Source: Norana najaformis (taxonomy: Eukaryota > Annelida > Clitellata > Crassiclitellata > Hormogastridae). From it: a stretch of DNA of 64,000 bases. The position numbers and the translations under genes were made by a program. Shown one piece after another: positions 617-64,000 of this stretch. The stretch is taken from the NCBI GenBank assembly GCA_964023275.1, contig OZ029919.1, positions 4,259,367 to 4,323,366 on the forward strand, read 5' to 3'. Positions within the stretch are counted from its first letter, which is position 1, and every line of letters starts with the position of its first letter. The notes beneath the pieces are model-generated. The model did not search any database. It worked only from the letters and a program-made list of their open reading frames with translations, and was not told where the DNA came from.

Positions 617-730
617 GAGATCCTTGTTTATCTAACCTTTGTCGCAACGGTGGAAACTGCTCGAGAACCGGTGATACGACATTTAACTGCACATGCATTC
701 CAGGATTCAGAGGCAACCTTTGTGAATATG
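617..730 (+). CDS. Gene A exon: EGF domain 1
   Basis: The acceptor is ctag before 617 and the donor gtggga after 730. The exon is 114 nt, phase 1-1. It begins DPCLSNLCRNGGNC and ends [11 protein letters not shown], giving six cysteines in EGF spacing with the usual NGG turn. Confidence 0.85.
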
Positions 731-3700
731 GTGGGAAAACCTTCATGTTATATCAAAACTAATCTAAAACAAAATATCTATGAACATGAATGTGTTCACA
801 AATCTAAATATTTGCATAGTGCTATATATAACTTCTCGCACCTGCGTGGAAACCGGTCGCAAAAAGCATCTTGAATGACATTTGTCGATTTATTTCTGGT
901 CACTTGTGCGCAATATTCCTCCACAGTTCATCACAAAAACACTTCTAAATAGCATTCGAAAATAGCGCAATTACGCTTCTGGTGGAAAGGGCACGCCAGA
1001 GCGGCACCACACGAAATCATACCGTATGACCAAGTTGACAAGGTTGTGTCGAGGTTGTCTCTCTTTACGGTTTCGTTATCATCATCATTCACCGAAGTTA
1101 GACTAAATTCCGTTGACAATAAATTACGCTGAAAATGAATAATTTTTTAAAAATCAATTACTGCAATATATAAGGCATATATTTATTAAATATTGCCGAA
1201 GAAAAGCAATAAGAAACACGTCCTTATGTTGATGACTTCTGCATTATCGTTTCTTGTGTCTTAGAAATAAATGAATGCGAGACGTATCCTTGCGACCCGT
1301 TTGGCAAATGCACGGATTTGGTAAATGACTACAGCTGCTCATGCAATCCGGGATATGAACCAGTAATCAGTAACACAAAAAATTGCAGTGGTGAGTCGAC
1401 TGATTCCGTCGGATTGTGTCTATTTTTTGAAAAATTTTGCTTTAAACATTGATTGGTAATGACACAGTGTAATTTTACGATCGTGATTTTTCGCTGATGA
1501 GTTAGAAAGTTTTAAGCGCGCGTTTGTGTTGACAGTTTTGGTCACGCACCGTCATCGAGTCATCGAGTTGTTGACATAGGACTGATTGGATAGTTGAGTC
1601 TCTTCGCTTAGGCGGGGCTGACTTTACGCAATTCTATATGCGGGCGCTTGTGATTGGATGGCTGTTCGAGAAAAACACATCTATATGACATCGTGAAAAA
1701 TATCGCTGCACTCTCGCCATCTCGCCAGGCAATCACAGACAACATATTGTCAGCAATTCGATGACTCATCGGTGGAACGTCGTGGAAATTTCCGATATGA
1801 AGGTGCGCTTAAAACTTACCACTCAGCATCGCAAAAAATTTACGTGCACAACATCTATCGTATAATTAAATTACGATAATACTCCTGTGGAGTTAGTACA
1901 GGTGATAGCATGCCAATACAAAATCAAAACACTTACTTTCTACTGTTGAAACCTGTACGTTACATTATGCAGACTCGTTTGTTTGGATAATAGAGATTGA
2001 TTATTGTGAGAGCAATTCGACGTGTTTCAACGGAGGCACATGTGTTAATCAACCTCAACTCGCGCGATTCTACTGCGAATGCCCGGAATCGAGAGAGCCC
2101 AATGAAGTAATTGTAGGATTACAATGTGAAAATAGTAAGACTGTTTTCCGTCTATGTTTCTTTACCTGCCTCATACTAAATGTTTTTATCGGTCTTCTTT
2201 CGTCAGCATTTCGGGCTAAAGTGCTCAAAAAGGAAGTTCCACTTTTATATTCAAAGGAATGTTTCATAATGCACTATCTTATAAGGCTATCAGTTTATCA
2301 CGAGTTTCTGAACCACAGAAATTATTTTTAAATGTCAAATATATTTCTTATGTAGCGATAATATATATTGACAAATATCGATCGATGGCGCTAAGCAGTT
2401 TTGCGCTGAAAAGTTTGAGAGGTTCCCGGAAGGTAATATTCAAGTTTTGACTTACATAATATGTACAAACATTATTACTCAAGTTTCTTACACATTAACC
2501 AATTTTTAAAAGGAATTTGTTTTGTCTTCACAGCATTCGCAAGATAGCGTCAGGGTTCATAATTGTGTGCTTAAGGCTATTATTTTAAGGATTGTCTATT
2601 ACTGTTTGCTTAAGAGATGCATAGAAACCTATTCTGTTGCACTAATTGTATTAATTGTAGTAGTATTTGCAATAGTGTCACAGTGTAAGCATTGTAGGAA
2701 CCACGACGTATCCGACTCCAGAGGCAATCTCCCCAAACTCCAGTATCATCGCAGGAGGTGCTCGAGTGAAAATCACAGGGAAAGCGATGAATCTCTTCGC
2801 TCCGTTGGGGGCCTATCTCATCCCGGACAACAATACAAACCTTACGACTCTGCACGCTTTGGTGGATCCAAATGCTACGTAGGTGACATTCTAATTAATA
2901 TCCACCTGAGTTCTGCTTTATTTCGTAAGTGACTGGCCGATATTAGCGGAGTGTGTGAGTTCCAAATGCCAATCGCAAAAAATTGATTTAGAAGAATGTA
3001 TGCTCCACTGACTCCATTCATTAAGACATGCATGACTGAAAACGACTGTCTTCATAGGTATAGCTCACATCTACTTGGTTCTGTGGCCGATTACAAGTGC
3101 GTTCGCCTTTCACCTATGCACCAGAGTTTCGATTCAATTCGTTGTCAGCTACATAACCAATAAAGTTTGTCCTATTGCTGGTTTGTTTTGTTCATGGAAT
3201 TCATCATGGGATATTTTGTACATGAACCATTTTATTAAAGGCATTGTATCCAGGCACGTTTTCTTGTACAAATGAACGATTACCTTACTCGATGTTTCTG
3301 GATGTATTATGATAATCCTCCAAATAGAAAATTTGATTTTTATAGTTTCAGCGACTCGATAACTATAGTAAGTCCTCGGGCAAGCGACTCATACGTCAAC
3401 TTAAAACTGCTTGTAACCTTGGAATACAGCGGACCAGTGAATCTCACAAACGCCACGGACTTATTCTTCACCTACCAAGGAAATCCTGTCATCAATGACA
3501 TCAGACCTACAGATCCACTAGTAGCGTGAGTCTCCATATTATTCGTGGACCATGCAGACACACGATTTATTGCTGATCAATGAGGACATTTTAACGACTC
3601 ACGACTCCTCTCGAATTGTTTTATCATTAATGTCACTGAAGAGCACCTTTAAGGAGTGCTTAATATTGCCGAGACGATTTACTGAGTTTGTTTTTCAAAT

Positions 3701-6700
3701 AGATGGTTTTAATATTTAACCCCCAATTACTGTGTATATGAATATATCTATGCATGTACTGTATGTATTCCTGTATGTGCGTATGTATGTGTATATCTGT
3801 ACATATCATTGCATGTATATATATAGGCTGGCATGTATGCATGCATGCAAAAATATATACACACATATGTACATACATACATAATACATATACACATACA
3901 CACAGAGCGCGTAGATAAGAAGTAAGCTTAAATATAAAACTGGACGCATTCAACGCGTCCCGATTACTCAAAATATCTATCGATTGATTTTTCAAATGAA
4001 TCATTTGGGCTAATCATTGATTCTTTCCTTAATTGCTCTTTCATGACAGATTCAGATTTACTGAATGCGAGCATAATAAGTGCTTTCAATAAATTAAATA
4101 AATTGTCTTTGAGGAGGACGTTTAAGAGCGCTATATATGTGTTGCAATAAACTTATGAATGACGTTATGTCCTTTATTGCTTATTCAGTAGAAGTTTATG
4201 GAGTTCTTAAAACGTAATGTAAATGGTTAATTGTTAGAGTGTTTAATGCATTAATAGAATTCGTCTTTTTCAGAGGTGGCGTTCAGCTGACTGTTACAGG
4301 GCAGAACATGAATGCCGTGGAACATCCTATAATGGAAGTCACGACGGTCGTATATAACAAAACAGCGAATGATACGTACTCGTCCAAACTGTCGGAAGTA
4401 GGCCAGTTCACTACTAAAACTTCTCAGTAAATTTCTATGAAAATATCTAGTCAGTATCACATAATTTAATGTACTTTGCGATAATGTGTTTTGAAATATT
4501 ATTACGGGTTAACGTGATTTTATGATCGCAGTGTCACCTTGTTGAGTCAGCGAGTTTCAGTTAAGCCTTGAACACCAAGAATCATAATAACTGCTAAGAA
4601 TATCATATAAAATATCGTGCATTTGTAGTAAAATAGATAAAATATGCTAGAACTTGTTACATTGTATCGAGAGAATTTCCACTTGCGTCCTCTAACATTG
4701 AGTATGAAGTGAGTATCAATGAGCACAGTGCGTCTAAACTCAAAGGAAGGTAAGATGGTGAAAAGGAAACTGACGATTACCTTTTAGCCTAGAATCTAGA
4801 AAATACAGAAATATGTTGAGCAAATAAAAAAGTCTATGCCCCTCTCAACTGTATAGCTCTATGAGCTGATGTTGCATTTGTTTTTAAAACTTGTAGGAAT
4901 GTTCACCAAAGAATTTCGCCGAGATGACTTGCCTCCTCCCTCCGGGAGTTGTTCCACCTGCCTTCATGAGTAGTGGCAATACGAAAAATGTAAGAGCAAG
5001 TCATTTCGATGTTTTCCCTCATCTTCAAGGCCTTTATCGCAGTCGAAGAACGAAAAGAGCGCCCCTCGCCAACTTCTCAGTAGATGGTAGCACGTGCGAG
5101 CTTTACCTCGGGTTCGTCTTGGATGCTCTGCCAACGTACGAGAACACTAGCAAATCTCTTCCGAATGTCGTGTTTTCATTCACCACCACATTTCCGAATA
5201 TCACTGCGGAACAAAATGTTAAGGAATTCAACCCAGAAACTGCCGATTACATCCAGATAAAAGTAACTCAAATAATTTTTTCTTACACAAGAAAACCTAG
5301 TAAGTGACGGAATCATATCTCACCTAGATCAAATATTGCGAAAGTACCCTTCATTATTACTAATTTTGATGGCTTCGAGTTTATGCTGGTACACGTATTA
5401 GGCTTTCGCAGTAATGCGTTAGTTAGATAATGTTGTCCACTGATCACTGCACAATGGCATCTGTATATTCCAATGCAGTATTCATGCCAAAAACATCTGA
5501 GTATTCAGCAGTCTTCGTTTAAGTAGAGCGTTTAGGTCAAACTGAAGTCCCAAATTTTTCTAATTGCCTATGAATTGTAATTTGCAATGCGGTTTGCTTA
5601 GAAGCGATCAAGAATTGAGGCCTTATAGAAATCTTCAGATTAGGTGAGATAGTATTTTGCTACGAAAAGATTGATTATTGAGTTTTGTGACAAGAAAGCA
5701 GAAAGAAATGTTTCTAAGTGTATAGGTGAGAATGATAGCCAGATACCGCTTAAAACTTCGTAATTCTGCGTTTCTTCAGAAACCAAGATAGCTAAATCGA
5801 GATATCTCATAGTCCAGTCACAAAGGCTGATTCAAAATTCAAATCTATGCAGTGAAAGTTGAATCAATAAATTATATAGTATATTTTAGCATCTTAGAGT
5901 AGGTTATTTCGGATAAGTATGTATGTATGTATTATTTATTATGCATTATGTAGGTATCAATGCTTTTGTGGACATTTGTTTTTGTGTATATATTTATTTA
6001 CATGTATATGTAGACCTAAATGTATTAATTCGAGCTACGAACAAATGTGCAAAGTCGTGCCCATTTTTACAAACCTTTAATTGGCGCCTCGGGATCAGAT
6101 TTAAGATGACTTTGTGCTCGCAACAGGCGCCTTGAATGATTAAATGAATGCATTGTGACAAACATAAGTCGTGTAGTTGGTGTAGACCGATGTCACTGTA
6201 GAATGGTTCAGTCATTATTTTTACTTTCGGATATGGCATCGTGCTTTTGTGTGTATTGCAAACAAGGGTGATGATATGGCGTCCGGATGTTCCATCGCAG
6301 ACTACACCGTTGGCGTTGGAAACGACACCTGCGACGTCTACAAACTGACGGACAATGAGCTGCTGTGTCATCCACCGAAGCAGATGCCACCTGCCGGCAA
6401 ATATCAGGATCATTGCCAATATGAAGGAACACTGGCAGTCCATGTAAATCATCAACTCAAATTTTGTTCAAAGTTAATGCGTTTAGAACAAATTCAATTA
6501 GCCAAAAGTAAGAGGGCTCAACGACCGACAATTACTTCTCTTTAAAGGACGGTCGATGCCGCTTAGGAAGCTTGGGAAAGCTGCTCTCTAACCAAATCCG
6601 TAATTTCCACTCGAAGACGGCACTTAAATCCCAGAAAGTCACTTTGCTGAATCATGTAATCTATGACAAAGGTCGTCACCTTTGCGCACAAGCCAGATTG

Positions 6701-7763
6701 TCCCTTCATCCCAGAATTACGACTTTAAAGACAGTGTTTAGTAAAGGCGTGACAGAAATGAGTGTTTCTTTCCTCAACTATACTGCAATCAGATCGTCCC
6801 TACAGAAAAACCTTTTGTCTCGCTCTGACATCACTGTCTATCGCTCTGATTTCTCCAAACGCCAATCATCAATTCTGCACCAGCTATTTGGAATACTCTC
6901 CCTGTTTGCATTATAATATCTCGCTACAGATTTTTGGAAAACAACTTAAGACCTATCTGTACCGTCTTGCTTTGTTGTCTGACCGCTATGACCTACTCAC
7001 GCCTGATGGACATATAGCGGATTAATAAATGCATTACTTACTTACTTACTTATACTTCTGTTTTCTGTTGTCTGATGAACAGGTGAATATAAGCACAAAG
7101 TCATATTTTGCGTACTGTCTTCGCTATAAGTCATCCGAGATCACCGACAGCAACAAAGCTCTGATCATCGGTTTGAGCGTTGCGGCCGCCGTCATTGTTC
7201 TTGTGATCATCTGCCTCGTAATCGCCATTTTAATAGTGAAGAAGAGAAAGAAGAAGAAAAGAGAAGCCCGCCAGAAGAAACTTGTTGAATATGAGAAGCT
7301 CACGACCGAAAGAAAACACAGCGGAGATCAGCTTCCAATGGAAGTCCCAACAGAAGAAAGTCAATCCGAAATTGAAGTTCATGAACAGCCAAATAGCGAC
7401 TACTTAGTGCTTTTCGAAAACAATCCACTGGAAATTCCTGCTTCGTCAAGGTCAAGTGCTGACTATTCGACGACTGCCAATAACGAAGCGGACGAGACAA
7501 CCTTTGGGGCCACGGTTCACCCGGAAACGCCATCCTACGACAACAGCTTTGAAATGATGGCAAAGGAGTCGAAAGAACAGAGTGGTAACGATGAACTGCA
7601 GAAATTTGAATATGAACCCGACGACCCAGCTCTAAAGTTTGACCTAAAGCATGTCGCGTTTCAAGAAGAGGTCTTCAAGCTGCCGAGACTAAGAATTGGA
7701 GAGGGCGATAAGAATCGGCAAGTGAATTATAACGACAGACGAGAAGAGAATGGATATTTTTAA
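617..7763 (+). CDS. Gene A (5' end outside window): EGF / IPT-TIG / transmembrane receptor-like protein
   Basis: Nine exons are visible: 617-730, 1265-1390, 1994-2134, 2698-2878, 3352-3525, 4274-4397, 4897-5262, 6267-6443 and 7083-7763. They join without a phase break to 693 residues plus stop. Order: EGF, calcium-binding EGF, EGF, three IPT/TIG domains (plexin/MET ectodomain type), one transmembrane helix, and a tail of about 174 residues. EGF exons are phase 1-1 and the late IPT exons phase 0-0. The signal-peptide and mucin exons seen in B, C and D must lie upstream, because the first 616 bases match the B intron before its second EGF exon. Known for the family: IPT domains with EGF or PSI modules occur in plexins and MET/RON; this protein lacks their intracellular catalytic domains. 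Role inferred: cell-surface adhesion or recognition. The exon model comes from splice consensus and comparison of four paralogues, not transcripts. Confidence 0.85.
1265..1390 (+). CDS. Gene A exon: calcium-binding EGF domain
   Basis: This exon is 126 nt, phase 1-1, with acceptor cttag and donor gtgagt. It starts [16 protein letters not shown]; the E-I-N-E-C opening and the later NDYSCSC are the calcium-binding EGF signature. Six cysteines are present. Confidence 0.88.
1994..2134 (+). CDS. Gene A exon: EGF domain 3
   Basis: This exon is 141 nt, phase 1-1, with donor gtaaga. It contains [20 protein letters not shown] and ends GLQCEN. The motif is conserved in all four genes. Confidence 0.85.
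2698..2878 (+). CDS. Gene A exon: IPT/TIG 1, first part
   Basis: This exon is 181 nt and runs from phase 1 to phase 2. It encodes [20 protein letters not shown], the classic I-x-P...GG...V-x-I-T-G opening of an IPT/TIG fold. The donor is GTAGGT here; the D copy has GTACGT at the same place, which fixes the boundary. Confidence 0.85.
3078..3136 (+). repeat. tRNA-like relic in intron of A
   Basis: ggttctgtggccgattacaa then gcgttcgcctttcacc and gagtttcgattc resemble a decayed tRNA or SINE head (A-box-like and B-box-like words). Copies lie at 26419-26480, 43924-43982 and 60449-60509, so it predates the duplications. No cloverleaf good enough for a working tRNA. Confidence 0.4.
3352..3525 (+). 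CDS. Gene A exon: IPT/TIG 1 end and IPT/TIG 2 start
   Basis: This exon is 174 nt, phase 2-2, with acceptor tttcag and donor gtgagt. It encodes SITIVSPRA, the [10 protein letters not shown] stretch with N-glycosylation sequons, then the domain boundary NPVINDIRPTDPLVA. A gtaagt lies inside the exon at ACTATA|GTAAGT and could be an alternative donor; gene B lacks it. Confidence 0.85.
3730..3906. repeat. Strand-switching GTAT/ATAC microsatellite, intron of A
   Basis: GTAT-type repeats on the left change to ATAC-type repeats on the right around a gcatgcatgcaa centre, an imperfect inverted repeat. The same intron of B (27420-27730), C (44580-44770) and D (61105-61315) has it too. Confidence 0.75.
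4274..4397 (+). CDS. Gene A exon: IPT/TIG 2, middle part
   Basis: The acceptor is tttttcag. The exon begins [20 protein letters not shown], as in plexin IPT domains. I place the donor at gaa|gtaggc (phase 0) because this alone joins in frame to the next exon, giving SKLSE-ECSPKNF; sequence after it diverges between paralogues and soon meets a stop. Confidence 0.75.
4897..5262 (+). CDS. Gene A exon: IPT/TIG 2 end, furin-type site, IPT/TIG 3 start
   Basis: This exon is 366 nt, phase 0-0. It encodes [17 protein letters not shown], the basic cluster RSRRTKRAP (RTKR at 5047-5058), then [14 protein letters not shown] and [13 protein letters not shown]. The donor is aaa|gtaact. Open frame continues past it to 5307, but only this donor restores the plexin-like join [12 protein letters not shown]. 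Confidence 0.78.
6267..6443 (+). CDS. Gene A exon: IPT/TIG 3, second part
   Basis: The acceptor is caaacaag. The exon is 177 nt, phase 0-0, encoding [20 protein letters not shown] then [13 protein letters not shown]. The DYTVGVG...C...LTDNELLC pattern matches the cysteine-bearing half of plexin IPT domains. The donor cat|gtaaat aligns with the strong gtaagt of gene D. Confidence 0.8.
6770..7062 (+). mobile_element. LINE 3' relic (last intron of A)
   Basis: Encodes fragments YTAIRSSLQKNLLS and [20 protein letters not shown] in shifted frames, then taataaatgcattacttact with a CTTA tail. End of an old CR1/L2-like non-LTR element. Confidence 0.6.
7083..7763 (+). CDS. Gene A last exon: transmembrane helix and cytoplasmic tail
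   Basis: The acceptor is gaacag. The exon gives 226 codons plus a TAA stop. The last IPT strand is [15 protein letters not shown]; the membrane helix is [20 protein letters not shown] extended to about 7238; then comes the stop-transfer cluster KKRKKKKREARQKK. The acidic tail holds [29 protein letters not shown] and the C-terminus ENGYF. Confidence 0.92.
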   Translation: MNISTKSYFAYCLRYKSSEITDSNKALIIGLSVAAAVIVLVIICLVIAILIVKKRKKKKREARQKKLVEYEKLTTERKHSGDQLPMEVPTEESQSEIEVHEQPNSDYLVLFENNPLEIPASSRSSADYSTTANNEADETTFGATVHPETPSYDNSFEMMAKESKEQSGNDELQKFEYEPDDPALKFDLKHVAFQEEVFKLPRLRIGEGDKNRQVNYNDRREENGYF

Positions 7764-7848
7764 ACAATTCGGTCGATAGGTACATGACGCTTTTTAGAAT
7801 GCTACTACTTGATATTTATACAAGACATGCGGCACAATACTGGGGTAA

Positions 7849-7854
7849 AATAAA
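7849..7854 (+). promoter_or_regulatory. Candidate polyadenylation signal AATAAA of gene A
   Basis: AATAAA lies 86 bases after the stop codon, inside gggtaaaataaatggg. The B and C copies read taaaatgaat or aaaatgaat at this place, so it is not fully conserved. Confidence 0.4.
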
Positions 7855-8128
7855 TGGGATGAGGGTGTGGCCATTGCCTGTACTTTGGTCGCACCACTGC
7901 TATGGAACTTCCTGCGTTGAGGTCATGACTCGATCTAAATGGAATGATCTTCATTGCTGAGAGCCATGCCTATAAACGGCCTCAGGCACTTTGTAGAGTT
8001 GTTATTATCATAGGCCTATGCATTATTTTACTTCGGCTTGTTAGTATAATACGTTTTCTTAGACCTCTCTGCGTTCATATTATTGATCGGGCACTTAATA
8101 ATTCTGTGCTTGATCTATGTGCTGGTAA

Positions 8129-8155
8129 GCACCAATGACTTTCAGTCATTGGTGC
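8129..8155. repeat. Perfect 12-bp inverted repeat
   Basis: The arms gcaccaatgact and agtcattggtgc flank a 3-base loop. The B and C downstream spacers keep only a short version (gactttaacaaagtc-like). It could fold as a hairpin in a long 3' UTR; function unknown. Confidence 0.6.
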
Positions 8156-8157
8156 AC

Positions 8158-10951: not shown

Positions 10952-10979
10952 ATGTTGGTGGAAATTATATTTATTTTTG
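10952..10979 (+). CDS. Gene B exon 1: start codon and first half of signal peptide
   Basis: ATG at 10952 encodes MLVEIIFIF plus one base, then GTAAGC. C (36457) and D (55248) keep the ATG, the hydrophobic codons and the donor. Joined at phase 1 to the acceptor before 12706 it continues [10 protein letters not shown], with a good signal-peptidase context. Confidence 0.65.
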
Positions 10980-13900
10980 GTAAGCCACTTCGTTTTTTTC
11001 TCCCAGTCTGATTTGATCCAATGTAATGTAATTCAATTACGAAAGTGATTTTATGTTGACGCTACGAAGTGATGAGTCAATAAGATTTCTAACAGCGCTC
11101 AGATGTAGGTCAATGTATCTCGCGCGCTAAGATATGGTTAGACTTGATTTGCCGATTCAGCTGGTTTCAAATTATATAAGGCAGACGATAGTATATTATA
11201 GAGCAGTATTTTGCTTTAGGTGTGTGTTTTGGGTCCTCACTTGACAGGAGAGTTTAACGTAAGATTTGTTTGAGTTGATTATGTTGACGATAGCAATTAA
11301 CAGAGTTTTAAGTATAGAGATTTCAGTGTTAGCGATAGAATTAATCGCTGTGATTAAACTATTTTGAAATTATATGTATATTTCTGTGAGTGAAAGCTGC
11401 GCTATAAATCTGGCGAATCTAGGATTCGAAGCTCCATTCGCAACTTCGAAAAGTCATTCACAGAAATGTAATGTAATATAACCGAATCTAGAGATTTAGA
11501 GATTATTTATATGATGCCGCCATGAGCTACAAGACAGCCTTAAGCAATCAAGTAAAGGTGAGTTGTAAGTCTGGCCCTGAATGCGAGATGTATACGTTAA
11601 GAGCGGAAGGAACTAGGCAACTACTTTCGAAACTCGGAAGAGCTACTGAAAGAGCCAAGTACTATTCTGGCCCGAGATGTAGGCTAGCAAAGTCTAAGCG
11701 TCTGATGATTGGGTGCAAAATTTATAGACATGGGGTGAGCAATGGTCAATGATGGGTCGCTTTTAATGTAACTCCTATTCGAACATGAGAAAGATTCTGA
11801 ACGGAACTCAATAGACATCAGTGGAAAAATTGCAAAGTAGGGATAATAAAGTGGTCATTTAGGTGATGTGCTTGATATGTAATCCAATGTGGGTTCCAGC
11901 CTGCTGAACAAATCCATGTATCGATTCGAGGCAAGTTGTTCGCGCAAACGTGTCTCTATCACCAAGAAAGCAAAATTTGGTGCCGATGTAAGGTGGAAAG
12001 TTAAGTGCAAAACTTGCAACTTACAAATAAATCACAACACTTGGTTCACCGTTTCTTCAGGCCTGAAAGAAAGTGTTCAAAAAATCCGCAACCGTTTCGG
12101 ACTAATCTGCTTCTGAAAAATCGGCAACTTCTGAGCGAATGCAACTACCTCTCATTTCACTTATTCCCTACAGTTTATTAGCAGAATGATTCTTTCCTTG
12201 GTCTGATATTCGAGTGAGCCAATTTTAAAAATTGCTATCTACATGTCGAACCCCAAGTCGTGTTATCAATTTTAGTAAGCTTGATAAAAAGACGGTCAAT
12301 ATACAAAGAATCAGCGCGTCGATTTCAAAACAGGCGGGGATCGGTTTGTGGTTTGAGGACCACATGTAGGAAAAACGACCAAAAAATTTATCCTATTTCC
12401 ATAGTTTTTGTTTGTTTGTGTTCACTGAAATTAGTGTGTGCCATTCATCTTTTAACAACACCACAATTATAACAATACGTTACTTTTCTTTTTAATGCAG
12501 TATTAGTTCAACCATTTATTATCGGGAAGATTACGTAAAGAAAATATTTTGGGCAGTCTTAAATATCTTAAATCTAGTATATTTTCTGCCAAACATATTT
12601 TTGAGTGAAAAACTATGAATGAAGAATCAGTGAATGAGTGAAGGAAGTGAAATAGTGAACAGTAAATGCGTGAAACTCCAGTAAACTTCAAAAATTTTTA
12701 TAAAGGATTTCTTGACAAACCTTCATTTGCAGCAGCAACTACAGCAACTACTCTACATGAGTCTGCATCAATGACCTCAGACACAACGCCCATTACAATT
12801 CTGGAAATGCAGTCTTCGAGTGCAACCACTTCATTTGGGTCTACCTCAGTGACCTCAGACACAACGCCCATTACTACTCTTACCGTGGAGACTTCGAGTG
12901 CAACCACTTTATTTGGGACCACATCAGTTACCTCAGACACAACGCCCATTACGACTCTTACCATAGACCCTTCGAGTCCAACCACTTCATTTGGGACTAC
13001 ATCAGTGACCTCAGACACAATGCCCATTACGAAGTCTACATCAGTGACCTCAGACACAACGCCCATTACGACTCTTACCATAGAGTCTTCGAGGACAACC
13101 ACTTCATTTGGGTCCACATCACTGGCTTCAGAAACAACGCCAATTAAGACTCTTATCATGGAGACTTCGAATGCAACCACATCTCTTATATCAACTTTAG
13201 TGACCTCAGACACAACGCCCGCTACGACTCTTAATATGGAGTCTTCGAGTGCAAACACTTCATTTGGGTCTACATCACTGGCCTCAGACACAACCGCCAT
13301 TACGACTCTTACCATAGAACCTTCGAGTGCAACCACGTCATTTGGGTCTACATCGGTGACTTCAGACATAACGCCCTTAACGACCCTTCCCAGGGAGACT
13401 TCGAATGCAACCCCTTCATTTGGAACAACATCAGTGACCTCAGACTCAACGCCCATAACGACGTCTACGTCAGCGACCTCAGAACCAACGCCCATTACGA
13501 CTCTTACTATGGAGTCTTCGAGTGCAACCACTTCATTTGAGTCAACCTCAGTGACGTCAGAGAACACGGCCGTTTCGACTACTACAATGGAGCCTTCGAG
13601 TGCATCCACTTCATTTGAGTCAACCTCAGTGACGTCAGAGAACACGGCCGTTTCGACTACTACAATGGAGCCTTCGAGTGCAACCACTTCATTTGAGTCA
13701 ACCTCAGTGACGTCAGAGAACACGGCCGTTTCGACTACTACAATGGAGCCTTCGAGTGCAACCACGTCATTTGAGTCAACCTCAGTGACGTCAGAGAACA
13801 CGGCCGTTTCGACTACTACAATGGAGCCTTCGAGTGCAACCACTTCATTTGAGTCAACCTCAGTGACGTCAGAGAACACGGCCGTTTCGACTACTACAAT

Positions 13901-33055: not shown

Positions 33056-33185
33056 ATACTTGCATACATACGTAATACATACATAATACATGATACATAC
33101 ATAATAATAGATAAATACATACATGTTTGCATACATACATAAATACATAGATACATACATATATACTTACAAACATACATACATA
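33056..33185. repeat. ATAC microsatellite downstream of gene B
   Basis: Imperfect runs of catacatacataa and agatacatacat. Same position relative to the gene as 8158-8280 and 50438-50570. Confidence 0.75.
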
Positions 33186-36456: not shown

Positions 36457-36484
36457 ATGTTAGTGGAAATTTTCGTAATTATTG
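36457..36484 (+). CDS. Gene C exon 1: start codon and first half of signal peptide
   Basis: ATG at 36457 encodes MLVEIFVII plus one base, then GTAAGC. The intron to exon 2 is only about 250 bp, against about 1.7 kb in B and 1.4 kb in D. Confidence 0.65.
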
Positions 36485-50312: not shown

Positions 50313-50437
50313 TATAATACGTTTTCTTAGACCTCTCTGCATCCATGTTATTGTTTGCCCACTTCACATTTCTATGTTTAGTCTGTGACTTTCACAAAGT
50401 CATCGGTGCACACATGCATGCATTTTGATCAGGGTTG

Positions 50438-50940: not shown

Positions 50941-52157
50941 AAAATTTGGCTTACAATAGTAAATCTCTAAATCAAATCATTTTATTTATTAACTGAAACC
51001 GTTTAAACAAACAAATAAACAAAGATGTTCTTAAGAACCGCGTACAAAATCTTCTTGGGTATCAAAAGGCAGGTCCAAAAGGACAGGGTCCTGCTTAAAG
51101 AAGCCGCCTATGACCCAATACAAATGTTCATATGGCGAATGGTCGGCTTCAGATATATGAACTAGTGTGTCATTTAAGACACTTAGAGCAAAACTAATAC
51201 TTAAACATAACCAAAACAAATGATAACAAAAAAGACACAAAACTAACTTAACTAATGGAAATTGTGCTCAAATAAGCAAGCAAATGTCTCTTTAAAAAAG
51301 TACAATTTGGGCATTTTACGCATATCAGAATGCAAACTATTCCACAAGTCCGGGCCAATTCATTTAATAGAGAATAGTCTGGTATTTGTGCGGGCCAATC
51401 CTTGATAGTACCTGTCTTCAGACCTAGTGAAATAGGTATGACGACCAAGATAAGTTAGAAAATAATCAGTCAAAGAAGTAGAAAGTAGATGGTGATCATA
51501 TCGATACTTAAATTCATAAATTTGCAATTTATTAATACAATCAACTTGGAAAATATTCATGTCAACAAAACATTGAACAGTGCTAGAATAAGGTGATGAT
51601 CATGAAATAACTCGTACTGCACGTTTTTTAATCGAGATGGATAATTTGAGGCCGATGCAATGTTGCAATATGACAAATATGGATAAACTAGGGTGTAATA
51701 TAGATTAAGACGTACCTGGCAAGGTAACACATTACTAATGAGAGATAACACTCCAATATTTTGGCAACTTTAGTAAATTCGTGCTTAATATGGTCATTCC
51801 AGGTAAATGCTCATCAATATATACACCCAAAAATTTAGTAAGCCTACATTTAGCTTGCATAAGTAATCTATTATCAATGAAAAGTTTAATATTCTGCTGC
51901 GGGAGGAGTTTTCTATGACAGCGAAATAAGATAAAATTATTCATAGTCAAACTCAAAGATAGTCGAATCGCCTTAAACCAATCTGCTACATGCATAAGTT
52001 CAGTGTTAACCAACTCCAGTAATATGTCCAATGATTTATTAGATTGGAAAACATTAGTGTCGTCTACAAAAAGGATAAAGTGAAGTAAACCAGATGAATT
52101 GGGAAGATCATTTACATAAAGAAGAAACAGAAGGTTAGACCTGAGGAACTCCACAAT
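50941..52157 (-). mobile_element. 5'-truncated non-LTR retrotransposon (CR1/Jockey-like LINE)
   Basis: Read on the minus strand it begins at a GVPQ motif and shows the reverse-transcriptase palm LLFLLYVNDLP and FILFVDDTNVF (FVDD in place of FADD), then DWFKAIRLSLS, VRLNLYYTLVYPYLSYCN, HTYFTRSEDRYYQGLARTNT and IGPDLWNSL. These segments lie in different frames, with at least three shifts and internal stops, so it is dead. The 5' end is cut just before GVPQ, as is common for LINEs. The matching spacers upstream of B and C lack the coding part. About 110 bp of similar sequence left of it (50866-50940, also at 8290-8390) may be its 3' UTR, so either a late insertion in this spacer or loss in the others is possible. 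Confidence 0.85.
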
Positions 52158-52783
52158 GATGACCCAAACTGTTCTAGCGAAGCGAAACAACTCGGGTGAC
52201 CTTATTGTGCTTATTCTGCAGTACAAATGTGAAACTTAATTAGTAACACACCACTAATAATAAGGTTCAATTAATTTCTGCTTTCAACAACCCAAGTTGC
52301 TGCCAGAATTCTAGATCTGTTATGAACTCAGTTGCGTCTGTTAGTTAGACGATTTGAAGCGGTTGTTATAGTTAACCTTAAAATCGATGAATGATCTGAC
52401 TGAATGACTTCTATGGCGCCATTATCATAATGCCCAAAGCACCAATGGTTGGTCGCTTCAAGTGAAATTGTGATCATTATAATAATCCATTAGAGAGGCC
52501 AGTTCGAATTCCTCATTGTGTTAGACATTTCCAAGTTATTGGGCGAATTGTTCTATGTCACAGAGATTAGGCAACGCGCTCAAGTAACGTGCAGGTAAGG
52601 TATTACCAGTGTAAAATTTATTTTCACAGAAAACACTCAAAACTAAAAACATTTCTCTTACATAAATCCTATCCTGATTCTTCCTCTTCCCATTATGTCT
52701 CTTTCCGCCCCAATTCCAATCACCATCCAACAAAGCCTGGCCCTGGGATCTTGATCTGGAACCGAATCTGACACTACCTGTCT

Positions 52784-55247: not shown

Positions 55248-55275
55248 ATGTTGGTGGAAATTTTCTTAATTATTG
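55248..55275 (+). CDS. Gene D exon 1: start codon and first half of signal peptide
   Basis: ATG at 55248 encodes MLVEIFLII plus one base, then GTAAGC. Joined to 56691 it gives GFVAKPSFA. Confidence 0.68.
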
Positions 55276-58200
55276 GTAAGCCAATTCGTTTATTTTCTTC
55301 CAATCTAATCTAATCTGTTCTAATCTAATCTGGTGTAATATAATTCAATTACGAGCATGATTTTACGTTGACGCTACGAAGTGATGAGTCAATATGTTTT
55401 CGACCAGCACGAGTGTCTCTATCACCTGAACGCTCTCGCGCTCTGAAACGAAGGTCAAAGTATCCCGCGCGCTAAGACAGGCTTAGACTTGATTTGCGAT
55501 TCAGCTGGTTTGAAGCTGTATTGGGCAGAAGATAGTATATTCTAGAGGAGTATGTTGTTTTAGGGGTGTGTTTTGGATGTTTAGCATAAGATTTGTTTGA
55601 GATTTTTATGCCGACGATGGTAATTTATAGTTCTAAGCATAGACATTTTAATGATAGCGACAGGATTAACAGATGTGAATGAACTATTTTGCTATGACAT
55701 GTATCTTTCTTTGAGTGAAAGCTGCGCTATGAATCTGGGGAATCTGGGATTCAAGGCTCGATTCGCAACTTCGAAGAGTCGTCGGCAGGAATGTAATGTA
55801 ATACAATCTAATATAGAGTTTCATATGATGCCGCTATGAGCTAGAGGACAGGTTACGATGTTTGGGCCAAAGCTTGTTCGGTCTGCAATGTGAGTTCCAG
55901 CCTGGCGAGCAAATCCGTGTAACAACTCTAGGTAAGTTATTCGCGCAAACTGGTCTCTGTCACCAAGAAGGTAGAATTTGGCACCGGCGTAAGTTGGAAA
56001 GTAAACTGCAAATCTCGTAATTTACAAATAAATCACAAGACTTGGATGGTTCACTATTTCAATGGGCCTGGCAGAAAGTGTTGAAAAATGCACAACTTTT
56101 TCGGACTAATCTGCTTCTGAATAATCAGCAACTTTTGAGCGAATGCAACTACTTGTTTTCTCACTTATTTCCTACAGTTTATGATCAAATTGATCCTTTC
56201 TTTGAAGTCTGCTATTCGAGTGACCCATTTTTTAAAATTTGCTACCTACAATCCCAAGTCGTTTAATCAACGTTAATAATCTTGATTTTAAAAAGCAGTT
56301 AATGTATTTTCTAAAATAGTCGGGGATCTTGTTTGTGGCCTGTGGACCACATGTTGGAAAAGCCTACAAAAGTATAATCTATTTATATAAAGTTTTTTAT
56401 GTTCATGTTAATTGAAATTAGTGTCATTTTTCTTTAACAACACCACAGTTATGATTATATGATTCTTTTGTTTTTTGATTAAGCTTTAGTTTAACCATTT
56501 ATTACAGGAAAGATTATATAAATAAATAATTTGGGCAGTTTTAAATATGTTAAGTCTAGAATATCTTAAGGCTATACTCATTTTGGAGCGAACAAATCAT
56601 GAATGAAGAAGCAGTAAATGAGCGAAGGAAGTGAACCAATAAATTGCAAATGCGTGAGCCTTGAGTGAACCTCAAAATCATTTGATTTAGGATTTGTTGC
56701 CAAACCTTCATTTGCTGCAATAACTACAGCAATACGGTCAACATCAGATCTCATTGGAACAATTACAACAGAATACACTATGTCGGAATTCAAATCTGAA
56801 ATAACTACACAAGATTTAGAAACAGCAGAACCTACTACTGAAACAACCACTACACACTCAACTACTTCTAAATATACTACAGGAAAAACTATAGTTGAAT
56901 CATCTGAGTCAGCAGCACTACTTGCTCCTAGTTCACCTAACTCTGAGAGAATCACTTATTCAGTAGCAACGGCCCTAGTCGCGCCCACTACTTTTTGGTC
57001 TACTTCTGAGGTGGTTTCTTCGTCAGTAGCAAGTTCCTTACTTGGGTCTTCATCAGTGACCTCAGAAACATCGCCTGCTACGACTCTGGAAATGCATTTT
57101 TCAAGTGCAACCACTTCATCTGAGGGCACAGCAGTAACCTTAGAAACATCGACTAACATCACAACAGATACGAGCAGTTTTGCGCAAACTATTACAACAC
57201 CTGCGCCAAGTACAACCAGCACTTCTGCTACCACCGGCACTTACCACACTACGTCAAGTACCATGCCGACGACAACTTCTCGTAAGAACAGAATTTATAT
57301 TTTAGTGAAATGGTACCATTTATATAGCGCTGCCATAGGATCTATTAGTAAGCTCCCTTATCTGAATGGTGTGGTGAAAAGTTGTGTATTTTAACACATT
57401 ATTTTGGCATCGATCGTATTAGTCTAAAATTGGTGGTGAGCTGACATTTATCCTCTTACTAACATTTACGAGTATGGTAATGTTAGACCTAACGAATGCA
57501 TAAGTTTCTTGTTTTGTTTCTATCATTGTCGATTGAATCAGACTTGTAATGTGAGGTTATCCGGTTGCTTTGTTGTAAGTGTTGACATCAGGATCTTTAA
57601 ACTTCTGGACTTCAGCTGTGAGAGACCATGGGGAGGAACTAAGATGGAGGATCCTAACAGATATGCTTTTTACGGGTTTAATTAGCCTACCATCGTTAAT
57701 GCTAACTCTACGCATCAATTCCTTACCCAGTTTCTCTGATTGCTTCGCTTGGCTATTCTAAAAAAATAGAATTTTCCTTTGAACCCTAATCTTTTCGACT
57801 TTGAGGGAAGTTTTTTCAAATAAAGCCAAAACAGTTGGTGTCATCTTTTTGCGAAAGTGAAGCGTGTACAGGCCTCATGATATCCCTTCAAGATATTCTT
57901 GCCTCAAGATATCGCTTTCAGTGCTGAGATAATTCCTCGTCGAAAGCCTCTAGTTCTTATAAAAATAACTTTCTGGAATTTGGGGGGACGTAATTATGAA
58001 TTTATTAATAATGACGTATGCAAGTAATTCACTTCGTGAGTAAGTAAGTTGCTTTTGGATGAATTTAGAAATGCTTGTACAGTTCGTCGTATGAAACAGT
58101 TAGCACAACAGAGCGTCATGTCTTAGGGAGAACGCTTGTCAACCAGAAGAGGTAACAATAACGTTGATCAAAGGTTAATTGCCGTTTTTGTGACTAGGAG

Positions 58201-61200
58201 ATCCCTGTTCCTCTAACCCATGTCGCAACGGTGGAATCTGCACAAGAAACGGTGATACGACATATAACTGCACCTGCATTCCAGGATTCAGAGGCAGCCT
58301 TTGTGAATATGGTGGGAAAACCAATATGTCATACAAAAATAATGTCAAAAACAAAATCTGTCTGAATACGTCACAATGTATGTGCTCAAGAACCAAAATA
58401 TTTGCATAGCGCCAGAACAAAATTTCTCGCACATCTGATGACATAAATTATCGTTTCTTGTGTTTTAGAAATAAATGAATGCGAGACGTATCCTTGCGAC
58501 CCGTTTGGCAAATGCACGGATTTGGTAAATGACTACAGCTGCTCATGCAATCCGGGATATGAACCTGAAAGCACGAAAACTTGCATTGGTGAGTCGACTG
58601 ATTCTGTAGGATTGTGTCCTTTTTGGACAAATTAAGCTTTAAACATCGTGTAGTAATGACATGCAGTTTGCTACACGCATGAATTTTTTAACGACATTTG
58701 TAACTCAAACTATCAACCGTGTACGCGGTTTATTATCGGTACAAGTTCTTTTCGCGCTCTTTTAATCTAGACATGTATGACCGCTTTATATAGGCTTTCC
58801 AGAGACAAGAGAAGACCAGCCTAGACAGGTCTAGGCTTACCTATGACTCGACGCAGCGAAAGCTCGACGTTTCCCGCGCAAGTGCCCAGGTGATAAAATT
58901 GCGCTGCAGTCGACATCACATCAGTCCAGTTCGCATTCGATGTGTGGCATTTAGACGCATCCAGTAACCGCAAGTCAGTGATCAACGCGTGCTCAACAAT
59001 TCAACAACCCGGTGACTTATCTATGTGACGTCGTGAAAAGTTTCGCTGCACTCTCGCCAGTCAATGACAGAAAACAGATTGTCAACAACCCGAATACTCA
59101 TCCGTGGAACGGCGTGCAAAGTTCCGATATAAACGCGCGTTAAAAGTATATTTACTCAACAGCGGACAAATTTGCGTTCATAGTATCTAACCTATGATAA
59201 GCGTATCATAATACTCCTGTGGAGTTAGTACAGTTGATAGCATGCCACTATAAAATCAAACCACTTATAGAATAATTCTTTTTGCAAATATTTACTTATA
59301 CCATTGTAAGCTGTTAGTTACATTATGCAGATTCGTTTGTTTTGATTTGTAGCGATTGATTATTGTGAAGGCAATTCGTCGTGTTTCAATGGAGGCACTT
59401 GTGTTAATCAACCTCAACTTGCACGATTCTACTGCATATGCCCTCCATCGAGTAACCCAAATGAAGTCATTGTGGGACTGCAATGTGAAAACAGTAAGAC
59501 TGTTTGTTGTCTGTATTTCTTTACTGGCCTCATACTAAATGTTTTTATCGGTCTTCATTCGTCAGCATTTCATGTTAGGGTGCTCCTCAAGGATGCCCCA
59601 CTTCAACAAGTAACCTTTCATGTTCGGAGGGATGTGTTATGATTCCATATCAGTGAAGACTATCAGTTTTTCATAAGTCTCTGAACCACAGAACTTATTA
59701 ATAAATGTCAAATATATTTCTTATGTAGCGCTACTATAAATTCACAAACACCAATCTATGTGATGCGACGCAGTTGTGCGCTGAGGACTTTGAGAAGTTC
59801 CCTAAAGACAGTATACAAGTTTTCACTTACATAATGCAAACAAACATTTTTGTTCAAGGCTCTTACACATTAGACGCTTTTTTAAAGGAATTTATTTTGT
59901 CTTCATAATATTCGCAAGACAGCGCCAACGTTCAAAATCGTGTGCTTAAGGCTATTATTTTAAAGACTGTCTATTACTGTTTGCTTAAGAGATGCATAGA
60001 AACCTATACTGTTGCACTAATTGTATTAATTGTAGTAGTATTTGCAATAGTGTCACAGTGTAAGCATTGTAGGAACCACGACGTATCCGACTCCAGAGGT
60101 AATCTCCCCAAAATCCAGTATCATCGCAGGAGGTGCTCGAGTGAAAATCACAGGGAAAGCGATGAATCTCTTCGCTCCGTTGGGGGCCTATCTCATCCCG
60201 GAAAACAATCCAAACCTTATGACTCTGCATGCCTTGGTCGATCCAAATGCTACGTACGTGAATTCTAATTAATATCCGCCTGAGTTCTGCTTTATTTCGT
60301 AAGTGACTGGCCGATATTAGCGGAGTGTGTGAGTTCCAAATGCCAATCGCAAAAAATTGATTTAGAAGAATGTATGCTCCACTGACTCCATTCATTAAGA
60401 CATCCTGACTGAAAACGACTGTCTTCATAGGTATAGCTCACATCTACTTGGTTCTGTGGCCGATTATAAGTGCGTTCGCCTTTCACCTATGCACCAGAGT
60501 TTCGAATCAATTCGTTGTCAGCTACATAACCAATAAAGTTTGTCCTATTGCTGGTTTGTTTTGTTCATGGAATTCATCATGGGATATTTTGTACATGAAC
60601 CATTTTATTAAGGGCATTGTATCCAGGCACGTTTTCTGGTACAAATGAGCGATTACCTTATTTGACATTTTTAGATGTATTATGATAATCCTCTAAATAG
60701 AAAATTTGATTTTTATAGTTTCAGCGACTCAATAACTATAGTAAGTCCTCGAGCAAACGACGCATACGTCAACTTAAAACTGCTTGTCACCTTGGAATAC
60801 AGCGGACCAGTGAATCTCACAAACGCCACGGACTTATTATTCACGTACCAAGGAAATCCTGTCATCAGTGACATCAAACCTAAAGATCCATTAGTAGCGT
60901 GAGTCTCAATATTATTCGTGGACCATGCAGACACACGATTTATGGCTGATCAATGAGGACATTTTAACGACTCACGACTCCTCTCGAATTGTTTTATCAC
61001 TAATGTCACTGAAGAGCACCTTTAAGGAGTGCTTAAAATTGCCGAGACGATTTACTGAGTTTGTTTTTTCAAATAGATGGTTTTAATATTTAACCCACAA
61101 TTACTGTGTATATGAATATATATATGTATATACTGTATGTATTCCTGTATGTGCGTATGTATGTGTATATCTGTACATATCATTGCATGTATATATATAG

Positions 61201-64000
61201 GCTGGCATGTATGCATGCATGCATAAATACATACACACATACGTACATACATGCATATATACATACATACATACATACATACATAATACATATACACATA
61301 CACACACAGAGCGCTAGGTAGATAAGAAGTAAGCTTAAATATAAAACTGGACGCATTCAACGCGTCCCGATTACTCAAAATATCTATCGATTGATTTTTC
61401 AAATGAATCATTTGGGCTAATCATTGATTCTTTCCTTATTTGCTCTTTCATGACAGATTCAGATTTACTGAATGCGAGCATAATAAGTGCTTTCAATAAA
61501 TTAAATAAATTGTCTTTGAGGTGGACGTTTAAGAGCGCTATATATGTGTTGCAATAAACTTATGAATGACGTTATGTCCTTTATGGCTTATTCAGTAGAA
61601 GTTTATGGAGTTTTTAAAACCTAATGTAAATGGTTAATTGTTAGAGTGTTTAATGCATTAATAGAATTCGTCTTTTTCAGAGGTGGCGTTCAGCTGACTG
61701 TTACAGGGCAGAACATGAATGCCGTGGAACATCCTATAATGGAAGTCACGACAGTCGTACAAAACAAAACTACGAATGAGACGTATACGTCCAAACTGTC
61801 GGAAGTAGGCCAGTTCACTACTAAAACTTCTCAGTGAATTTCTATGAAAATATCTAGTCAGTATCACATAATTTAATGTACTTTGCGATAATGTGTTTTG
61901 AAATATTATTACGGGTTAACGTGATTTTATGATCGCAGTGTCACCTTGTTGAGTCAGCGAGTTTCAGTTAAGCCTTGAACACCATGAAGTCATAATAACT
62001 GCTAAGAATATCATATAAAATATCGTGCATTTGTAGTAAAATAGATAAAATATGCTAGAACTTGTTACACTGTATCGAGAGAATTTCCACTTGCGTCCTC
62101 TAACATTGAGTATGAAGTGAGTATCAATGAGCACAGTGCGTCTAAACTCAAAGGAAGGTAAGATGGTGAAAAGGAAACTGACGATTACCTTTTACCCTAG
62201 AATCTAGAAAATACAGAAATATGTTGAGCAAATAAAAAAGTCTATGCCCCTCTCAACTGTATAGTTCTATGAGCTGATGTTGCATTTGTTGTTAAAACTT
62301 GTAGGAATGTTCACCAAAGAATTCCGCCGAGATGACTTGCCTCCTCCCTCCTGGAGTTGTTCCACCTGCCTTCGTAAATGACGTCAATGTGAGAAATGTA
62401 AGAGCAAGTCATTTCGATGTTTTCCCTCATCTTCAAGGCCTTTATCGCAGTCGAAGATCGAAGAGAGCGCCACTCGCCAACTTCTCAGTAGATGGCAGCA
62501 CGTGCGAGCTTTACCTCGGGTTCGTCTTGGATGCTCTGCCAACGTACGAGAACACCAGCAAATCTCTTCCGAATGTCGTGTTTACATTCACCACCACATT
62601 TCCGAATATCACTACGGAACAAAATGTTAAGGAATTCAACCCAGAAACTGCCGATTACATCCAGATAAAAGTAACTCAAATAATTTTTTCTTACACAAGA
62701 AATCCTAGTAAATGACGAGGTCATATCTGACCTAGATCGAATATTGCGAAAGTACCCTTCATTATTACTAATTTTGATGGCTTCGAGTTTATGCTGTACA
62801 CGCATTAGGCTTTCACAGTATTGCGTTCGTTCGATAATGTTGTCCACTGATCACTGCACAATGGCATCTATATATTCCGATGTAGTATTTATGCCGAAAC
62901 ATCTGAGTATTCAGCAGTCTTCGTTTAAGTAGAGCGTTTAGGTCAAACTGAAGTCCCATATTTTTCTAATTGCCTATGAATTGTAATTTGCAATGCGGTT
63001 TGCTTAGAAGCGATCAAGAATTGAGGCCTTATAGAAGTCTTCAGATTAGGTGACATAGTATTTTGCTACGAAAAGATTGATTATATTATTATTGGGTCTT
63101 GTGGCAAGAAAGCAGAAAGAAATGTTTCTAAGTGTATAGTTGAAAATGATAGCCAGATACGGCTTAAAACTTCGTAATTCTGCGTTTCTTCAGAAACCAA
63201 GATAGCTAAATCGAGATATCTCATGGTTCAGTCACAAAGGCTGAGTCAAAATTCAAATCTATGCAGTGAAAGTTGAGTCAATAAATTATATAGTATATTT
63301 TAGAATCTTAGTGTAGGTTATTTCGGATAAGTATGTATGTATGTTTTATGCATTATGTAGGTATCAATGCTTTTGTGGACATTTGTTTTTGAGTATATAT
63401 TTATTTACATGTATGTGTAGACCTAAATGTATTAATTCGAGCTACGAACAAATGTGTAAAGTGGTGCCCATTTTTACAAACCTTTAATTGGCGCCTCGGG
63501 ATCAGATTTAAGATGACTTTGTGCTCGCAATAGGCGCCTTGAATGATTAAATGAATGCATTGTGACAAGCATAGGTCGTGTAGTTGGTGTAGACCGATGT
63601 CACTGTGGCATGGTTCAGTCATTATTTTTACTTTCGGATATGGCATCGTGCTTTTGTGTGTATTGCAAACAAGGGTCAGGATTTGGCGTCCGGATGTTCC
63701 ATCGCAGACTACACCGTTGGCGTTGGAAACGACACCTGCGTCGTTTACAATCTGACGAAAAATGAGCTGCTGTGTCATCCACCAAAGCAGATGCCACCTG
63801 CCGGCGAATTTGAGAAACATTGTCAGCAATATCAAGGAACACTGGCAGTCACAGTAAGTCATCATCTCAAATTTTGTTCAAAGTGAATGCGTTTAGAACA
63901 ACTTCAATTAGCCAAAAGTAAGAGGGCTCAACGAACGACAATTACTTCTCTTTAAAGGACGGTCGTTGCCACTGAGGAATCTCTGGCCACTGCTACCTAA
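55248..64000 (+). CDS. Gene D (3' end outside window): mucin / EGF / IPT-TIG transmembrane protein
   Basis: Ten exons are visible: 55248-55275, 56691-57281, 58198-58311, 58469-58588, 59353-59493, 60073-60253, 60725-60898, 61681-61804, 62305-62670 and 63674-63853. They join to 673 codons without phase conflict. The start [18 protein letters not shown] is the clearest signal peptide of the set (A-x-A-like end before AITT). The mucin part is only 197 codons and not a clean repeat; there is one EGF1 exon, not two. The IPT exons and introns are nearly identical to those of gene A. The last exon (membrane helix and tail) should begin about 500 bp past the right edge, judging from A. Confidence 0.83.
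56691..57281 (+). CDS. Gene D exon 2: short mucin exon
   Basis: The acceptor is gatttag and the donor tctc|gtaaga; 197 codons. It holds [19 protein letters not shown] and [16 protein letters not shown], with one recognisable 26-residue-like unit and the tail [19 protein letters not shown]. Little array structure, so it may resemble the state before expansion. Confidence 0.85.
58198..58311 (+). CDS. Gene D exon 3: EGF domain 1
   Basis: 114 nt, phase 1-1, encoding [19 protein letters not shown] and ending GSLCEYG. The next intron is only 157 bp, against 534 bp in A. Confidence 0.85.
58469..58588 (+). CDS. Gene D exon 4: calcium-binding EGF domain
   Basis: 120 nt, two codons shorter than in the other genes; the linker is [10 protein letters not shown]. 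It begins [16 protein letters not shown]. Confidence 0.87.
59353..59493 (+). CDS. Gene D exon 5: EGF domain 3
   Basis: 141 nt, phase 1-1, encoding [20 protein letters not shown]. The exon and the sequence just before it (about 59220 on) match gene B closely. Confidence 0.86.
60073..60253 (+). CDS. Gene D exon 6: IPT/TIG 1, first part
   Basis: 181 nt, phase 1 to 2, encoding [20 protein letters not shown]. The donor gctac|gtacgt is the least ambiguous of the four copies. Confidence 0.86.
60449..60509 (+). repeat. tRNA-like relic in intron of D
   Basis: Paralogue of 3078-3136; keeps gagtttcgaatc, the best B-box-like form of the four. Confidence 0.4.
60725..60898 (+). CDS. Gene D exon 7: IPT/TIG 1 end and IPT/TIG 2 start
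   Basis: 174 nt, phase 2-2, encoding [20 protein letters not shown] and [15 protein letters not shown]. The donor is gtgagt. Confidence 0.85.
61105..61315. repeat. Strand-switching GTAT/ATAC microsatellite, intron of D
   Basis: Nearly the same as 3730-3906 in A but with a longer run of catacatacatacatac, showing repeat-number change between the two closest copies. Confidence 0.75.
61681..61804 (+). CDS. Gene D exon 8: IPT/TIG 2, middle part
   Basis: Encodes [20 protein letters not shown] and ends SKLSE before gtaggc. One of the most A-like exons, differing in the loop [12 protein letters not shown]. Confidence 0.75.
62305..62670 (+). CDS. Gene D exon 9: IPT/TIG 2 end, furin-type site, IPT/TIG 3 start
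   Basis: 366 nt, phase 0-0, encoding [26 protein letters not shown] (RSKR at 62455-62466) and ADYIQIK before gtaact. The loop after the CLLPP motif, [10 protein letters not shown], differs from [10 protein letters not shown] in A. Confidence 0.78.
63674..63853 (+). CDS. Gene D exon 10: IPT/TIG 3, second part
   Basis: 180 nt, phase 0-0, encoding [20 protein letters not shown] and [13 protein letters not shown], ending GTLAVT before gtaagt. This strong donor fixes the homologous sites in A, B and C. Confidence 0.82.

Follow-up and report, generated by a model that had tools for sequence, protein, structure and literature searches.

The 64,000-base window of Norana najaformis DNA analyzed here, which contains no N, carries a tandem family of predicted membrane proteins that combine a putative mucin stalk with EGF domains and three IPT domains of the plexin/MET kind. 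Spliced models reveal four paralogues (A, B, C, and D) arranged head to tail on the + strand, and a furin-like site is located between IPT2 and IPT3 in all four. The mucin-EGF-IPT tandem family given in a preliminary description of this DNA is confirmed by the predicted proteins, and the interpretation offered with it is, as a whole, partly supported. We read the family as a combination of known kinds, transmembrane mucins and plexin/IPT surface receptors without a catalytic tail. The chances are about even that the paralogues are single-pass surface glycoproteins, each a two-part, convertase-cut transmembrane mucin/adhesion receptor. The copies occupy the following positions:

Copy A, 617-7763 (stop included), + strand: 5' part precedes the window; splice-consistent open model with Pfam EGF and TIG matches
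Copy B, 10952-32257, + strand: signal peptide to stop within the window
Copy C, 36457-49630, + strand: signal peptide to stop within the window; splice-consistent open model
Copy D, 55248-63853, + strand: 3' part beyond the window; splice-consistent open model

The complete order, which consists of a signal peptide, a single mucin exon, the EGF domains, three IPTs, a helix, and a 174-residue tail, is found in 2 of the 4 copies, B and C. The signal peptide and mucin of A and the helix and tail of D are outside the window. The shared domain order described earlier is therefore visible in full in B and C, and copies A and D are cut by the window ends.

The window is intron-rich with a G+C content of 37-50%, and comparison of the window with itself reveals long collinear copies of about 70-91% identity per piece, which agree with the spliced models on four head-to-tail paralogues. 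We built the models on splice-site conservation, on frames that stay open, and on the synonymous differences between copies. Over the four models 40/40 acceptors are AG and 40/40 donors are GT (9/9 acceptors and 8/8 donors in A; 11/11 of each in both B and C; 9/9 acceptors and 10/10 donors in D), totals that arise partly by construction because the sites were picked in B and transferred by alignment. The first acceptor chosen for IPT1b was dropped and re-chosen because it was not conserved between copies. The exon phases are equal among the copies, being 1-1 for the mucin and EGF exons and then 1-2, 2-2, 2-0, 0-0, and 0-0; the phase-consistent exons noted earlier thus hold exon by exon, with GT-AG sites kept between copies. 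Read in the model frame, the non-mucin coding sequence has only the terminal stop in A, B, and C (1 each) and none (0) in D, and it holds 22-46 stops in either other frame. Chance open reading frames (ORFs) were rejected on these wrong-frame stops. A scan of the window for AATAAA as a marker of 3' ends gave 118 matches, too frequent to be useful, and Rfam and tRNA searches of it gave nothing informative.

The three IPTs are spread over five exons, which are placed by the models in every copy, with Pfam matches in A and B and phmmer matches in B:

Copy A, + strand: IPT1 2698-2878 and 3352-3525, IPT2 4274-4397 and 4897-5262, IPT3 6267-6443
Copy B, + strand: IPT1 25966-26146 and 26825-26998, IPT2 28105-28228 and 28770-29138, IPT3 30030-30209
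Copy C, + strand: IPT1 43509-43689 and 44351-44524, IPT2 45167-45290 and 45829-46197, IPT3 47607-47786
Copy D, + strand: IPT1 60073-60253 and 60725-60898, IPT2 61681-61804 and 62305-62670, IPT3 63674-63853

A Pfam scan of the spliced models gives both EGF and TIG above their cut-offs in A and B. The whole proteins score 44.4 bits (A) and 32.6 bits (B) for TIG (PF01833, cut-off 20.9), and the six IPT segments from A and B, taken one by one, give 16.8-20.0 bits, so that 0/6 reach this cut-off; for 6/6 of these segments the best match, or the only one, is TIG. Relatives were sought among sequences of solved structures (PDB), using phmmer with IPT1-3 of B and a profile of the four copies. The phmmer search found Plexin-A2 (E 2.1e-5), MET (4.8e-4), Plexin-A4 (0.0074 and 0.0086), and Plexin-A1 (0.078 and 5.1), and the profile found MET (E 1.4e-7), Plexin-A2 (1.3e-5), Plexin-A1 (0.0013 and 0.1), and Plexin-A4 (0.0022 and 0.0023), as well as amyloid precursor pieces from E 0.31 that cover only the helix region. 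The query IPT2 and IPT3 align in order to Plexin-A2 1001-1069 and 1141-1174 and to MET 724-778 and 857-899, which we take to be the last two IPTs of those proteins. The plexin/MET likeness proposed for the IPTs is borne out by the Pfam, phmmer, and profile matches together. The Pfam scan of copies A and B outside the mucin showed neither Sema nor PSI at E<=0.05.

The furin-like site is RSRRTKR in A, B, and C and RSRRSKR in D, with coordinates set by hand from the exon starts:

Copy A, 5038-5058, + strand: furin-like site
Copy B, 28911-28931, + strand: furin-like site RSRRTKR
Copy C, 45970-45990, + strand: furin-like site
Copy D, 62446-62466, + strand: furin-like site RSRRSKR

In 4/4 copies the site is flanked by the conserved CLLPP of IPT2 and an LYLGF strand, and in each of the four modelled ectodomains RX[RK]R occurs at a single place, as two overlapping matches. 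A cut here would separate an arm of mucin, EGF, and IPT1-2 from IPT3 and the membrane, and the site reads as if the mucin arm were released or kept as a separate chain. In plexin-B receptors, a convertase site is described whose use sets free a soluble ectodomain (PMC10452846, in part).

The helix and tail are encoded by the last exon:

Copy A, 7083-7763 (stop included), + strand: transmembrane and tail exon, from the model
Copy B, 31577-32257, + strand: last exon, with juxtamembrane segment, helix at about 31652-31729, 174-residue tail, and stop
Copy C, 48950-49630, + strand: transmembrane and tail exon, from the model

The tail has 174 residues and is closed by a stop in A, B, and C. AlphaFold models the last exon of B with a helix at 22-76 and with residues 76-226 below 50 in predicted local distance difference test (pLDDT) score, so that the tail is modelled as disordered. 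Outside the mucin, Pfam revealed no kinase or RasGAP in A or B, and among the best 25 of 31 and 33 matches (E<=1) to the last exons of A and B no family is over its cut-off. The copy A tail has no match at E<=1 among PDB sequences. In agreement with the previous description, no catalytic tail was detected in the last exons, in Pfam, or in the PDB search. A kinase or RasGAP hidden between the genes was rejected for the A-B gap (none in 8/8 ORFs of at least 65 amino acids) and for the C-D gap (none in 8/8 ORFs of at least 75 amino acids), the scan having covered the ORFs of these two gaps; they yielded nothing beyond a reverse transcriptase and two chance names, all below threshold. The copy A tail features two matches to the consensus of the immunoreceptor tyrosine-based inhibitory motif (ITIM), VEYEKL and SDYLVL, and B and C have none; by a rough reckoning it would not be unusual for chance to give two such matches in a set of seven tyrosines. 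A YDN motif is present in the tail of A and absent from B and C. Copy A also has the most divergent tail of the three, with a ratio of nonsynonymous to synonymous divergence (dN/dS) of 0.76 to B and 0.52 to C, compared with 0.28 for B and C.

The EGF domains precede the IPTs and number 4 in B, 4 in C, 3 in D, and 3 in A within the window:

Copy A, + strand: EGF1b 617-730, EGFca 1265-1390, EGF3 1994-2134 (model, Pfam)
Copy B, + strand: EGF1a 22295-22408, EGF1b 23890-24003, EGFca 24531-24656, EGF3 25271-25411 (six-Cys pattern, model, Pfam)
Copy C, + strand: EGF1a 39926-40039, EGF1b 41563-41676, EGFca 42225-42350, EGF3 42846-42986 (model)
Copy D, + strand: EGF1b 58198-58311, EGFca 58469-58588, EGF3 59353-59493 (model)

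Pfam EGF (PF00008, cut-off 21.5) scores 64.6 bits in B (E 9.3e-18) and 38.6 bits in A (E 1.3e-9). The six-Cys EGF pattern has 14 matches on the + strand, every one at a modelled exon, and 2 further matches on the - strand in repeat-rich stretches that carry no model. Between EGF1a and EGF1b of B, at about 22970-23070 (+), there is a relic of a mucin-exon 3' end with an in-frame TAG, and the extra EGF therefore looks like a partial internal duplication.

The signal peptide, as read by eye, spans two exons, a short first coding exon and the start of the mucin exon:

Copy B, 10952-10979, + strand: coding start and first half of the signal peptide, as read by eye; the ATG and donor are also conserved in C and D
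Copy C, 36457-36484, + strand: signal exon, splice-consistent open model
Copy D, 55248-55275, + strand: signal exon, splice-consistent open model
Copy B, 12706-21354, + strand: mucin exon, 2,883 codons with 0 stops in the model frame (Tandem Repeats Finder (TRF), composition, frames)
Copy C, 36736-38985, + strand: mucin exon, 750 amino acids, splice-consistent open model
Copy D, 56691-57281, + strand: mucin exon, 197 amino acids, splice-consistent open model

For the mucin acceptor of B and D an earlier AG was preferred to a later one because it gives a usual-looking signal peptide, which is a choice and not a proof. Copy C is without the stretch that bears the usual mucin-exon start of B and D; its second signal-peptide half differs and uses another acceptor. 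The stalks vary as stated earlier, from 2,883 residues in B to 750 in C and 197 in D, with Ser+Thr contents of 56%, 52%, and 47%, respectively; the label mucin is given on this composition and is putative as to glycosylation. In B, TRF determined a unit of 78 bp (26 amino acids) with 98.9 copies and 95% matches at 13498-21209, and our own split of the stalk yields 88 clean 26-residue units of 29 kinds. A 2,295-codon antisense open frame over this array (12698-19585, -) is probably a by-product of the 78-bp unit. The features of a transmembrane mucin are thus present, namely the signal peptide, Ser/Thr-rich repeats, a transmembrane helix, and a tail. Outside the mucin, copies A and B gave no Pfam match to SEA or NIDO-AMOP-VWD, and neither was found in the mucin of D, the only mucin exon scanned, which gave two sub-threshold chance names.

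The history of the copies was examined by pairwise divergence, with D taken without its last exon and EGF1a compared in B and C only. In the six copy pairs non-coding divergence is 0.116-0.233, dS is 0.139-0.218, and dN is 0.058-0.097, so that non-coding divergence is near dS and higher than dN. The dN/dS totals are 0.32-0.48 and no pair is above 1 overall, which speaks against strong diversifying selection. On the same totals the copies were rejected as pseudogenes as a whole. IPT3 has dN/dS above 1 for AD and CD, where the ratios rest on 3.5 and 3 synonymous changes, and EGF1a of B and C differs by 0 synonymous and 2 other changes and gives no ratio. From EGF to tail, 354 informative sites group the copies as AD|BC (247), AB|CD (85), or AC|BD (22), and these sites lie in blocks, with 305 adjacent pairs of the same type compared with a mean of 193 and a maximum of 218 in 2000 shuffles. 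AB|CD is favoured by EGF1b, EGF3, and the surroundings of both, and AD|BC by the IPT part. Short AB|CD runs are found in B at 28817-28858 (6 sites, IPT2b) and 30162-30221 (8 sites, IPT3 into the intron), and each lies over part of one of the two 12-residue windows that vary most. For amino-acid differences, the top window taken singly is not significant (P 0.11). The four best sum to 33 compared with a null mean of 25.2, and 1/2000 shuffles is as high (P 0.0005), a statistic picked after the data were seen. The mosaic exchange and the clustered differences weakly favour a recognition-like history.

In the proposed mechanism, a proprotein convertase would cut between IPT2 and IPT3 during export, and the outer chain (mucin, EGF, and IPT1-2) would be held on the membrane chain (IPT3, helix, and tail) non-covalently or by a disulfide, from which it could be shed. 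The stalk may hold or shield the EGF/IPT rod, with repeat number setting its reach, and the EGF/IPT part may bind a partner in cis or in trans. The tail would signal by nothing more than docking at its conserved tyrosines and at a motif of the sorting type (YLEV/YLVL), or would link to the cell cortex, and the several versions would arise by tandem duplication with exchange between copies. The domain order and the conserved furin-like site are read from the predicted proteins, and we infer cleavage, shedding, binding, and signalling from them. Several points weigh against this reading. The family is known here from DNA, and basic stretches can remain uncut. One Plexin-A2 piece is out of order (query 278-322 on 939-980), the Plexin-A2 pieces are singly weak (independent E-values of 2.8-73), the piece aligning IPT3 with MET has a score of -2.3 bits, and phmmer with IPT1-3 of B also gives unrelated names from E 0.2 (Rab7, PapA2, carbonic anhydrase). 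AlphaFold was uninformative for the IPT2b exon alone (pLDDT 33.6), and its tail model was made from three sequences, has a mean pLDDT of 43.3, and includes two low-confidence strands.

The main rival is that these are mucins of an epithelial glycocalyx or mucus barrier, in which the stalk does the work by lubricating and by trapping microbes, and the IPT/EGF base, which would have no specific partner, serves only as an anchor and as a hinge for shedding in place of SEA. The long stalks of B and C with their high Ser+Thr content, and a frame kept intact over about 99 units in B, agree with such a role, and the layout of signal peptide, Pro/Thr/Ser repeats, SEA/EGF, transmembrane helix, and tail is a known one (PMC9080433, in part). 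However, the stalk of D has only 197 residues, and the EGF/IPT exons evolve under constraint, which suggests that the base has its own job; we regard the barrier role as somewhat unlikely. As described in the same source, transmembrane mucins bear SEA (most) or NIDO-AMOP-VWD (MUC4), and IPT, TIG, and plexin are absent from its main text. The present proteins share the signal peptide, the Ser/Thr-rich repeat stalk, EGF, helix, and tail with those mucins but feature an IPT triplet where those have SEA or NIDO-AMOP-VWD. Self-cleavage is known among transmembrane mucins, and in its place a furin-like site is found here. Another explanation is that these are tail-less plexin relatives that serve as decoys or co-receptors for semaphorin/plexin signalling. 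In its favour are the likeness of the IPT block to that of plexins and MET and the sponge Amphimedon, where the intracellular regions of four plexins are short and lack conserved domains (PMC6374515, in part). What was scanned of A and B, however, showed neither Sema nor PSI, so the semaphorin-binding head is missing, and this explanation is quite improbable. Plexins share with the present family the IPT block, through the matches to Plexin-A1/A2/A4, and, in plexin-B, the presence of an ectodomain convertase site; Sema, PSI, and RasGAP were not found here, with mucin and EGF in their place. MET and RON are likewise single-pass, and MET is the best match of the four-copy profile among solved structures, but no Sema, PSI, or kinase was found here. 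MET is cleaved within its Sema domain, and the convertase site here is between IPTs.

Self/non-self recognition for this family is a guess. An array of the Dictyostelium Tgr (Tiger) kind, with short signalling tails and with polymorphic IPT ectodomains that attach to their matching partners on other cells, is unlikely. We know of no mucin stalk or plexin-like layout in Tgr proteins. Dictyostelium IPT transmembrane proteins do act in this way; TgrC1 is single-pass with a short tail, and the Tgr locus shows duplication and recombination (PMC4404348, PMC12324515, PMC3188802, each in part), which is a likeness in kind. The mosaic topology, with like neighbours beyond the shuffle maximum, and the clustering by the four-window statistic, chosen after the data were seen, are in its favour, but the dN/dS totals indicate purifying selection overall, the best single window is not significant, and the differences compared are between paralogues, not alleles, while conversion is possible in any tandem array. 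A more elaborate version is improbable and speculative: a recognition-receptor array in which a transmembrane mucin is joined to a plexin/MET stalk, the convertase nick would make a releasable sensor, short IPT2/IPT3 segments would be swapped by gene conversion, and tails would be split like paired inhibitory (A) and non-inhibitory (B, C) receptors. That the copies are dead or dying, or are separate genes wrongly joined, is very improbable. The relic with its TAG in B, the other acceptor needed by C, and models that rest on DNA would fit this, but frames and phases are intact in 4/4 copies, and the six dN/dS totals are under 0.5 with non-coding divergence near dS and above dN.

The exact order of mucin, EGF, three IPTs, and transmembrane helix was not found in the open-access literature, including the best 15 of 26 and the best 15 of 97 matches, in agreement, among the matches listed, with the earlier statement that no named family with this order was known to its author. 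Three dictyostelids have 5, 7, and 1 proteins that carry both IPT/TIG and EGF, and the two further species in the table have 1 and 0 (PMC4931340, in part). A search of viral contigs for relatives gave 52 pattern matches, of which none was confirmed. The preliminary description called the family lineage-specific, a label that is putative here. TMEM260 adds O-mannose to IPT domains of plexins, MET, and RON (PMC11292533, in part), and TMEM260-type O-mannose could be looked for on the present IPTs. If the family is real as transcripts, a mucin-type protein would make use of the membrane-near plexin/MET stalk with no Sema, kinase, or RasGAP attached, which would bear on the assembly of plexin/MET receptors and on the IPT domains' own roles in adhesion and convertase-controlled shedding. 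The mosaic tandem array with very unequal stalks offers a concrete locus for testing allelic variation and recognition.

Other features of the window include a degraded reverse-transcriptase frame between C and D at 51735-52235 (-), with RVT_1 at E 0.038, below the cut-off. The last intron of B features an inverted repeat, seen by eye at about 31190-31260, which is a hairpin and perhaps a small mobile element, and a telomere-like GGTTAGGGTTAGGG near 30985. CATA-type microsatellites are found in introns and intergenic DNA at 27514-27711, 33063-33185, 61214-61306, and other positions.

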